Positions 29,202 to 30,569 of a DNA stretch of 64,000 nucleotides are shown here, piece after piece (the first letter of the stretch is position 1; each line of letters starts with the position of its first letter). The stretch is from Flavobacteriaceae bacterium (GTDB lineage: Bacteria; Bacteroidota; Bacteroidia; Flavobacteriales; Flavobacteriaceae), in NCBI GenBank assembly GCA_013214065.1, contig JABSPK010000002.1, positions 310,001-374,000 on the forward strand, in the 5' to 3' direction. The notes beneath the pieces are model-generated. The model had not been told where the DNA came from. It saw nothing but the letters and a program-made list of their open reading frames with translations, and searched no databases. The translations under genes were made by a program, and so were the position numbers.

Positions 29202-29660
29202 ATGAGGTATCTCCTTTCCTTTCTCTGTATCGGCATGTATTCCTGCCAAATCAAAACGGCCGACCCGGAGCCCCAAGCGGCAAGGATGAATAAAACCTAT
29301 ATCGATCCTGGACCAGGGTATTCACAGGCCGTAGCGGTCGAGGCCAATGGGGTAAAGACCATCCATATTTCCGGGCAAGTAGGTACGGGGCCCAATTTTG
29401 AGACGCAGTTCAAAAACGCTTTGGACGGGCTCTTCAAAACCCTGGAAAATTCCGGCGCTACTTTTGACGATGTGGTCAAATACAACACCTATATCGTCGA
29501 TTACCAACCCGCCTATTTGGACACCTTCCGGAAGGTGCGAAAAGCCCTATTGGGCGATTCCGATATGCCGGCCAGCACCTTGGTAGGCGTTCAAGCCCTA
29601 GGATTACCTGAGTGGAAGGTCGAGATCGAAGCGATAGCGGTACTAGCCGTTGAAGAATAA
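29202..29660 (+). CDS. Rid family protein with lipoprotein-like leader
   Basis: A 152-residue protein. Residues 1-15 (MRYLLSFLCIGMYSC) look like a short lipoprotein signal, which is unusual for this normally cytoplasmic family. The rest is a complete Rid/YjgF domain (IHISGQVG, TFDDVVKYNTYIVD, LGLPEWKVEIEAIAVL). RidA enzymes hydrolyse reactive enamines and imines using an arginine just before the STVGV-type strand; here the site reads PASTLVGV (S125), so that arginine is missing. It starts 3 bp after the oxidoreductase stop, in the same operon. A role in keto-sugar clean-up is speculative. Confidence 0.8.
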   Translation: MRYLLSFLCIGMYSCQIKTADPEPQAARMNKTYIDPGPGYSQAVAVEANGVKTIHISGQVGTGPNFETQFKNALDGLFKTLENSGATFDDVVKYNTYIVDYQPAYLDTFRKVRKALLGDSDMPASTLVGVQALGLPEWKVEIEAIAVLAVEE

Positions 29661-29760
29661 ACACTTCAAAAATTGCACACGCAAGGCCGGTCATATTCCG
29701 TGGAGAAGGATACTCCTCAACTTACCTCAACGCTACATTCTGCCAGGTCGATTCCCCAAA

Positions 29761-29920
29761 GATTTTCCAGAAATAAAGGGCCTGCGAGCGGAAGTGCGTT
29801 CCGCATAGCGGAACAATGCATGGAGCGTCGACAGGGACCTGGTTTCGGTACCACCGAAAATTTCCCGGAAAATCGCCACAGCCTTTTTTGGTCCTTTTTT
29901 TGGCGTTGTAAAAAAGGACA
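29761..29920 (+). repeat. Structured 160-bp repeat, copy A
   Basis: Aligns without gaps to 30034-30193 with about 18 differences by hand count. Internal inverted pairs: GATTTTCC (29761-29768) with GGAAAATC (29867-29874); GTTCCGC-ATA-GCGGAAC; TTTCGGT-ACC-ACCGAAA (29843-29859); and GTCCTTTTTT (29891-29900) with AAAAAAGGAC (29910-29919). Strand given is the one on which stem changes keep pairing. A 9-bp inverted pair AAGGATACT/AGTATCCTT (29706-29714, 29929-29937) flanks it. Confidence 0.85.
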
Positions 29921-30033
29921 ATAGAACCAGTATCCTTTCATTTCTTTTGTCTCACAACCCTTCGACCTCGCTTAGAGCTGGCATCAAGAAACATGTAAGA
30001 GGGAAATACCGTTTTCAATACGTTCTCACCATA

Positions 30034-30193
30034 GATTTTCCAGAAATAAGGGACCTGCAAGCGGAAGTGCGTTCCGCAGGGCGGAACAATGCATGGAGCG
30101 TCGGCAGGGACCTGGTTTCGGTGCAGCTGAAAATTTCACGGAAAATCGCCCAAGCCTTTTTCGGTCCTTTTTTCGGTGCTGGAAAAAAGGACA
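30034..30193 (+). repeat. Structured 160-bp repeat, copy B
   Basis: Second copy, same orientation as copy A. The stems are kept: GATTTTCC/GGAAAATC (30034-30041, 30140-30147), GTTCCGC-AGG-GCGGAAC, TTTCGGT-GCA-GCTGAAA (30116-30132, with two G-U pairs) and GTCCTTTTTT/AAAAAAGGAC (30164-30173, 30183-30192). The loops differ from copy A. It ends about 10 bp before the DUF2237 gene's stop. Confidence 0.85.
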
Positions 30194-30203
30194 TGAAAAC
30201 AAC

Positions 30204-30569
30204 TTACGTCGAAACGAATTTATGCTCCAACAACTGTTCAAACCCCACATAATCCAAAGCCTTTTGGTGTGTAGACTCCAAAATCACCTGTGGTGCAACC
30301 CCCGCTTCATAGGCCTGTTTCCAACGCGAGACGCATAAACACCAACGATCTCCAGGCCGCAAACCGGGAAACTGATAGAAGGGTACCGGGCCGATCAAAT
30401 CGTTGCCCTTGGATTTGGAGAATCGTAAAAATTCCTCTGTCATGATAGCACAGACCACATGGGTGCCTACGTCATCCGCCCCCGTTTTACAAAACCCATC
30501 CCGATAGAAGCCGGTCTTTGGTTCAAAACAACAAGATTGCAATTCGGTTCCCAAAACATTTTTCTCCAA
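30204..30569 (-). CDS. DUF2237 family protein
   Basis: A 121-residue protein that matches DUF2237 along its whole length: KNVLGTELQSCC, KTGFYRDGFCKTG, HVVCAIMTEEFL, GNDLIGPVP, FPGLRPGDRWCLCVSRWKQA and VILESTHQKALDYV. The conserved cysteines are kept. Function is not known for the family. There is no ATG before the conserved region; the frame opens with TTG at 30569, which gives MEKNVLGT, and I take that as the start. It is divergent from the DUF427 gene, with 65 bp between starts. Confidence 0.88.
   Translation of the reverse strand: MEKNVLGTELQSCCFEPKTGFYRDGFCKTGADDVGTHVVCAIMTEEFLRFSKSKGNDLIGPVPFYQFPGLRPGDRWCLCVSRWKQAYEAGVAPQVILESTHQKALDYVGFEQLLEHKFVST

Follow-up and report, generated by a model that had tools for sequence, protein, structure and literature searches.

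A family of structured, pseudoknotted RNA elements in Flavobacteriaceae, one class of which recurs in tryptophan and kynurenine operons

A stretch of 64,000 nt of Flavobacteriaceae DNA (the whole stretch is referred to as the window) contains a pair of related repeats, A and B, which belong to class I of a new family of structured RNA elements found in Flavobacteriaceae. The fold of the family is kept by compensatory change and is a selected structure of the + strand. Class II elements are placed in the sense orientation in intercistronic gaps in the genus surveyed, and this one class recurs in the same two opposed pathways, tryptophan synthesis and breakdown. The explanation we favor, with moderate confidence in the whole, is that of a mobile, structured, cis-acting mRNA element, which is transcribed by readthrough from the upstream gene and may have a role at mRNA boundaries; a biochemical effect is unproven. 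The result is a covarying, pseudoknotted RNA family without a match in Rfam 15, distributed across one large bacterial family.

The two copies in the window are gap-free (A, 29753-29927; B, 30026-30200), are spaced by 273 nt and are 87% identical over 175 nt. The initial annotation, made from the letters of the window, reported ~18 differences over 160 positions between two gap-free copies, four inverted pairs intact in both and arm changes in one stem that preserve pairing on the + strand. We counted exactly 18 differences, and the inverted pairs common to A and B, GATTTTCC/GGAAAATC, GAAAT/ATTTC, GTTCCGC/GCGGAAC and TTTCGGT/ACCGAAA, are indeed unbroken. The last of these, the P3 pair, is TTTCGGT/GCTGAAA in B, such that a U-A pair becomes U-G and a G-C pair becomes G-U on the + strand. 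The folds predicted for the + strands of A and B are nearly the same structure and include, beyond these stems, a P2 stem, a GTGC/GCAT stem and a 3´ pseudoknot (Table 1). Compared with dinucleotide shuffles, the folds had z scores of -2.5 (A) and -4.5 (B) for the + strand and of -1.7 (A) and -2.5 (B) for the - strand. Only two of the 18 differences, both leading to G-U, fall on the 90 positions that are paired identically in both folds, where ~10 would be expected at random (one-sided binomial p 1e-4). This test leans towards the fold because differences that break a pair drop out of the shared set, the folds being predicted ones. The gene before the pair, described as Rid-like in the initial annotation, does match PF01042, the same Pfam family as the RidA encoded after class II elements in kynurenine operons. 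No tblastn match between the two was found at E <= 1e-5, so the presence of PF01042 beside both the window pair and the kynurenine elements is probably a coincidence.

Table 1. Features of the two class I copies and of the flanking genes in the window
Feature	Position	Strand	Evidence or remark
Copy A, P1 to end of S2	29761..29920	+	R1 (model including A) 113 bits; R2 (without A) E 3e-5
Copy B	30034..30193	+	R1 (model including B) 110.8 bits; R2 (without B) E 0.0015
A: P1 closing stem, 5´ arm, pairs with 29867-29874	29761..29768	+	fold; 8/8 pairs vary on both sides (A5 helix 1)
A: P1b GAAAT, pairs with 29860-29864 ATTTC	29770..29774	+	fold, A5 covariation
A: P2 arm, conserved core GCGGAAGTGC ... 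GCATGGAGCG and apical hairpin	29781..29835	+	fold, alignment
A: apical hairpin GTTCCGC/GCGGAAC	29798..29814	+	helix 7: 99.1% of cells paired (A5)
A: P3 hairpin TTTCGGT/ACCGAAA, site of the two G-U changes of B	29843..29859	+	folds of A and B
A: pseudoknot S1, CGCCA 29874-29878 with TGGCG 29901-29905	29874..29905	+	covariation
B: pseudoknot S1, CGCC with GGTG	30147-30150 with 30175-30178	+	
A: S2 hairpin GTCCTTTTTT/AAAAAAGGAC, T run before	29891..29919	+	arms 29891-29900, 29910-29919
B: S2 hairpin	30164-30192	+	fold
Rid-like gene (PF01042), upstream, co-directional	29202..29660	+	stop 100 nt before P1 of A
DUF2237 (PF09996) gene, convergent, downstream, end just past B	30204..30569	-	

In the genome from which the window derives (3.48 Mb, 24 contigs), only A and B were found, both by blastn and with R1, a covariance model built from A, B and five relatives. 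The initial annotation had named absence of the unit outside this locus, with no transcript, as evidence against its reading; relatives are present across Flavobacteriaceae. Blastn over 60 genomes gave one further hit, a short one, and when blastn was extended to 397 genomes of the family, 85 had partial hits (E <= 0.1). Many of these hits are due to chance; several turned out to be complete elements. Of 249 genomes searched with R1, 34 had elements at E <= 0.01, the highest number per genome being nine. A pattern scan of 84,980 species genomes returned 40 stretches, all in records of Bacteroidota or a subgroup; 35 records are of Flavobacteriaceae or a genus of it, and the other five are two Bacteroidetes MAGs, one Saprospiraceae, one Cytophagaceae and one Bacteroidia MAG. 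The genera recovered were Mesonia, Flagellimonas/Allomuricauda, Eudoraea, Croceivirga, Euzebyella, Robertkochia, Poritiphilus, Psychroflexus, Haloflavibacter and Robiginitalea, which we take to belong to Flavobacteriaceae. Copies can be clustered, with three in 0.7 kb at one locus (L140) and six within 4 kb in Psychroflexus halocasei (L144:2735-6412), where five are spaced by ~450 nt and another repeat lies in the opposite orientation between some of the six.

No Rfam 15 match overlapped an element, either in the window at gathering cut-offs or in ten R1-family loci and six class II loci at E <= 1; the Bacteroid-trp RNA upstream of trpE, which served as a positive control of the scan, was detected. 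Elsewhere, at L009:1086-1121, we noted a match to the DUF805b RNA (RF02914) over its gathering score. A phage origin was rejected, as a search of the phage collection, at the sensitivity of blastn, returned no match. A 2017 survey that reportedly lists 224 candidate RNAs lies outside the scope of our literature search. Within that scope, open-licence PMC literature represented mostly by titles and the starts of abstracts, together with passages of PMC2864571 and PMC3733652, no description of the element family was found.

The conserved architecture consists of a closing stem (P1, CGAAGATTTT/AAAATCTTC; P1b, GAAAT/ATTTC), a junction with a long P2 arm and the P3 hairpin, and an H-type pseudoknot directly after P1. 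The P2 arm has a strongly conserved core, GCGGAAGTGC ... GCATGNAGCG (also written GCGGAAGUGC ... GCAUGNAGCG), around an apical hairpin whose length is highly variable among copies. In the pseudoknot, S1 is formed between CTTGAT and ATCAAG, the latter lying in the loop of the hairpin that follows, S2 (GTTCGTTTTG/CAAAATGAAC). For the 94 distinct sequences of our main alignment (A5; 95 elements), 90.3% of cells are paired, compared with 69.6% after shuffling and 40-50% when partners are slid; both sides change in 32 of 38 pairs, in 659 cells against 180 when shuffled, and the covariation score is 0.466 against 0.135 (shuffled) and 0.06-0.10 (slid). A5 was fitted to the model’s structure, but two MAFFT alignments agree on both-sides changes: a plain alignment of seven sequences (A2), with such changes in 16 of 33 predicted pairs, and an alignment of 14 class II sequences with a hand-drawn structure (A6), with such changes in 15 of 40 pairs and in 54 cells against 17 when shuffled. 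Further pair types in A6 were not above shuffles (29 against 26.7, a value reached by 97 of 500 shuffles).

The 3´ pseudoknot lies outside the pair lists of both models, and S1 covaries nonetheless, with variants such as CTTGAC/GTCAAG, CTTGAA/TTCAAG, CGTC/GACG and TGCC/GGCA. From 76 kept sequences we obtained 47 distinct site pairs; for the 25 with a loop other than ATCAAG, mean pairing was 4.52, compared with 3.73 +/- 0.17 for shuffled partners (0 of 2000). Some copies with the loop GGCAATG or ATCAATG lack S1 pairing, and the search for the 3´ hairpin returned none in two of the 95 sequences and an implausible one in several others. Among non-Watson-Crick cells, with two near-invariant G-U pairs excluded, G-U outnumbers A-C by 108 to 45, compared with 271 to 224 in shuffles (Fisher p 0.0005, without correction for kinship), which favors the + strand. 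Had other copies broken the stems at random, the proposal of the initial annotation, a selected + strand RNA, would have failed the covariance-model test suggested with it. Compensatory change was found to keep the stems, and the covariation and the G-U excess support the proposal for the family. For all of these counts, cells and genomic contexts are not independent events, because the sequences are related and the sites are partly inherited; shared descent was not removed from any count, and independent gains were not counted.

Two further ideas about the 3´ part were discarded. We considered that the T-rich loop and the A-T-rich S2 might form a triple helix; this cannot be a general feature because a hairpin replaces the T run in some copies. 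An intrinsic terminator was rejected as S2 is A/T-rich and is followed by mixed sequence, with the T run before it instead (judged by eye). As a separate observation, the same 3´ module (CTAG or CTTGAT, a T run and a GGTNC hairpin with the loop GGCAATG or ATCAAG) ends other structured-looking bodies (L002:1481-1542; L010, L012, L013 and L014 at ~1350-1550; L140:1310-1500; the trpE-trpG gap of L177), as if one tail served several element classes.

Class II differs from class I in a shorter P3 and in a 5´ module of its own before P1. A GTCCY motif is present in 66 of 91 class II elements, a hairpin in 86 and both in 64, compared with GTCCY in 4 and the hairpin in 22 of 78 class I elements. A second model, R2, was built from 14 class II elements with the 3´ module and no window sequence. 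R2 nevertheless detects both A and B (Table 1), and we therefore treat class I and class II as one superfamily. Within one genus, R2 matched in 43 of 68 genomes (E <= 1e-12); 92 matches of at least 100 bits (counted by eye) were obtained, of which 91, in 41 genomes, were placed relative to genes, and matches below 100 bits were mostly not placed. The single unplaced match (G434:C16:19849, L182) is in the sense orientation between trpG and trpD. One of the 91, at L299, lacks the usual GAAATA motif.

The placement of these elements is nearly uniform. The upstream gene is co-directional in all 86 cases that have one, both neighbors are co-directional in 83 of 91, with 66 of those 83 within 260 nt of either neighbor, and the downstream gene is opposite in two. 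Using blastp to twelve reference proteins, named by Pfam, to assign neighbors, we found that 65 of the 91 adjoin genes of tryptophan synthesis or the kynurenine pathway, 58 of them being flanked by pathway genes on both sides. Forty adjoin trp genes (F/B 11, G/D 10, D/C 7, E/G 7, B/A 3, others 2) and 25 adjoin kynurenine genes (monooxygenase/RidA 14, kynureninase/monooxygenase 9, aldehyde dehydrogenase 2). The remaining 26 adjoin neither pathway; zinc uptake, ABC/cobalamin adenosyltransferase, ABC-F/methyltransferase and SPFH/RtcB genes are among their neighbors. In the family at large, R2 matched in at least 73 of 397 genomes and at least 60 of 237 genera (E <= 1e-10). Among the matches listed, the 30 top-scoring elements (29 genomes) adjoin trp genes in 12 cases and kynurenine genes in five, i.e. 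in 17 of 30, and have both neighbors co-directional in 24 and both opposite in three. Lower-scoring relatives of class II of ~172 nt, in the same genus, are of mixed orientation, and no trp or kynurenine gene was found in the ten loci around them. Such genes are present at only two of the 68 non-window A5 loci (L068 and L069), both class II; they are absent from the class I loci of A5 and from the window, and of the 12 class II loci reached with R1, two have trp genes and none has kynurenine genes. These control loci and the window confine the link with tryptophan to part of class II; it does not extend to A and B.

For the family sampled by A5, the upstream gene is co-directional for 54 of 95 elements, opposite for 29 and missing for 12, and the downstream gene is co-directional for 42, opposite for 42 and missing for 11. 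Within 125 nt, the 5´ side of the elements faces 21 gene 3´ ends and two gene 5´ ends, and the 3´ side 12 and 14, respectively (Fisher p 0.0009). Class I is, at most, biased in orientation (upstream gene co-directional 46, opposite 23, none 9; n=78); taken alone, it gave 17, 2, 10 and 9 in the same test (p 0.03), and this weakens with distance (p 0.11 at 150 nt, 0.16 at 200 nt). Some elements lie inside operons, as in rmlC-rmlD (genes named by eye) and trpE-trpG-trpD. No single conserved neighbor gene was seen for class I. Control of polysaccharide operons was also considered; the cases are real (by eye, rmlC/rmlD in L121, acetyltransferase/glycosyltransferase in L118 and L137; also wzz/dehydratase in L015), yet they are a minority.

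Across 85 dissimilar copies, no conserved promoter-like position was found within 75 nt upstream, and conservation starts at P1. This is at odds with the copies being trans-acting small RNAs, duplicated locally in tandem and transcribed from their own promoters, as might be imagined from the strong structure, the clusters at L144 and L140 and the opposite upstream gene of 23 of the 69 class I elements that have one. Such RNAs would also not account for the 83 class II elements between two co-directional genes, mostly at short distance, and we hold this possibility to be very doubtful.

Mobility is indicated by the trp operons. At 24 trp loci of the same genus, the trpE-trpG gap is 1 nt in ten and contains a class II element in three (gaps of 228-336 nt), and the trpG-trpD gap is 1-2 nt in six and contains an element in six (273-421 nt); in L177, a weaker relative (50.6 bits) occupies the trpE-trpG gap. 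Because loss of an element is unlikely to restore a tight stop-start junction, we read the short gaps as empty sites, and the filled and empty junctions in sister species are the result of insertion. Movement is also reflected in the nearest relatives of 55 placed trp and kynurenine elements of 140-150 nt. The nearest relative is at the same junction in another genome for 24, at another junction of the same operon in another genome for 21 (identity up to 98%), in the same genome and operon for six, in the other operon, in another genome, for three, and an unplaced element for one. The set comprised 56 sequences, one of which, a contig-end element without a neighbor, was excluded from the counts, and some junction labels were completed by hand when one side was obscured by a contig end or a missed gene. 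The initial annotation had offered a mobile hairpin element as one reading of the repeats, which likewise is supported for the family; filled and empty sites were found for the related class II and were not seen for the window copies themselves.

We found no ligand, protein partner or mobilizing enzyme. A RAYT/Y1 transposase was rejected as a general mobilizer because PF01797 is absent from the window genome (no match) and the palindromes adjacent to such genes are different. PF01797 occurs in 21 of 49 genomes, with or without an element, and among the 22 of 30 PF01797 loci that were scanned a clear element lies beside the gene in one (L099), with a weak 15-bit hit in one. By eye, RAYT-like transposase genes at L095, L096, L098, L099 and L112 lie next to other, short palindromes. 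In some elements (L005, L080:4562-4715), the apical loop is interrupted by similar short palindromes. A reverse transcriptase, as for a derivative of a retroelement or group II intron, was likewise rejected: RVT_1 is present in four of ten element-bearing genomes, absent from six and not found in the window genome. No common enzyme partner was found among the two families searched genome-wide (PF01797 and PF00078).

Mobility alone would be satisfied by a passive repeat of the MITE or REP type without a cis function, whose fold is needed by the mobilizing machinery (acting on DNA or RNA) and whose sense placement merely results from the elimination of antisense copies, which would act as transcription terminators. 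The antisense strands of class II are C-rich and rut-like, with C-over-G bubbles of 8.8 compared with 0.2 per 60 nt, and the sense strands are not, so antisense copies could be Rho terminators. These C-rich strands could by themselves account for orientation but leave the choice of pathways unexplained: a random repeat is not expected beside genes of two pathways in 65 of 91 class II copies, and the ten loci of the ~172-nt relatives hold no gene of either. Dispersed copies (up to nine per genome in the R1 search, or 13), a sporadic distribution (34/249 genomes) and the different junctions in sister species all fit a passive repeat, whereas the lack of a common enzyme in the two families searched, with neither PF01797 nor RVT_1 in the window genome, does not. 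We regard it as unlikely, though a possibility to be taken seriously.

The choice of pathways raises the further possibility that class II responds to tryptophan or kynurenine as an RNA similar to a riboswitch or attenuator, with class I a relative that has another signal. The 40 trp and 25 kynurenine contexts among 91, 58 with a pathway gene on both sides, the 12 and five among the 30 top-scoring of the matches listed for the family at large, and the GTCCY plus hairpin module in 64 of 91 speak for it, but the elements are not leaders. They are mostly intercistronic or downstream of a gene, often with several per operon, and so do not meet the leader position expected of a metabolite riboswitch, and one trp operon (G179) already has a Bacteroid-trp leader upstream of trpE. 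Moreover, 26 of 91 are elsewhere, zinc uptake, ABC-F/methyltransferase and SPFH/RtcB among these contexts, and the 12 class II loci reached with R1 yielded trp genes in only two and kynurenine genes in none. The tryptophan link leaves a metabolite-sensing reading open; as an explanation of class II we consider it improbable.

We return to a mobile, cis-acting mRNA element. On the evidence of junctions, the element would be mobile, or recently so. It would have no promoter of its own and be transcribed by readthrough from the upstream gene, and would work in cis as part of the mRNA; these steps are inferred from the orientation and the lack of a promoter, without transcript data. The weakest step, for which there are no decay data, is that the pseudoknotted fold may mark an mRNA boundary, most probably by protecting the upstream cistron at its 3´ end against 3´-5´ decay, and/or by preventing the untranslated gap from triggering Rho-dependent termination. 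A boundary element of this type could set the relative output of neighboring genes, an inference as weak as the one it depends on. For A and B, which lie ~100 and ~370 nt downstream of a co-directional gene, the role would be that of the 3´ UTR of this gene. A bolder version, to which we give little credence, is a self-spreading RNA that moves via the transcript, by insertion into polycistronic mRNA and copying back, with class II adopted for dedicated intercistronic control of tryptophan synthesis and breakdown. Movement borne by the transcript would explain sense-only and gap-only insertion as well as relocation within one operon. If control of individual cistron output holds, the elements would offer these bacteria a transferable means of adjusting operons between genes; movement as RNA, if real, would make them a mobile element of a new kind. 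The filled and empty trp junctions in sister species make effects on expression directly testable.

The elements share features with several known systems. REP sequences, BIMEs and RAYT-mobilized REPINs are also dispersed, intergenic palindromic repeats found in 3´ UTRs and intercistronic gaps, and BIMEs can stabilize upstream mRNA. The new element, in contrast, is ~150-190 nt long, has one elaborate, covarying, pseudoknotted fold, is present in few copies and is sense-biased; none of the REP/RAYT features that we checked applied to it, and a Y1 transposase is missing from the window genome. ERIC/IRU sequences of enterobacteria are ~127 bp repeats in intercistronic gaps thought to act via RNA structure. 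They come from a different phylum, and class II is nearly strictly sense and located in recurrent metabolic operons. By analogy, the mode of action may be somewhat like that of the BIME and ERIC intercistronic repeats. The Bacteroid-trp leader RNA (RF01692) is likewise a structured RNA of Bacteroidota trp operons, as at L068:7538-7656 upstream of trpE, but is a leader, whereas the new elements are separate, lie between genes and are unmatched by RF01692 in the six loci scanned. Flavo-1 (RF01705) and GUCCY-hairpin are named as candidate structured RNAs of Bacteroidetes in the passages available of Weinberg et al., 2010 (PMC2864571). Flavo-1 gave no match to the new elements in the window and loci scanned with Rfam. 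GUCCY-hairpin resembles class II in that the latter carries GTCCY and a hairpin 5´ of P1, and overlap with this module is not excluded because the consensus is absent from those text passages.

A few features of individual trp loci were also noted. At L184:2113-2257, and in a remnant at L183, trpG starts within the 3´ arm of S2 (CAAAATG), where its start codon could be masked by the pseudoknot. At L238:5601-7239, a class II element lies between two adjacent trpF homologs (PF00697). Finally, the trp operon gaps of L168-L191 contain a hairpin of the form GATTCCTGC..GCAGGAAT immediately upstream of the following start codon, as well as short tandem repeats.
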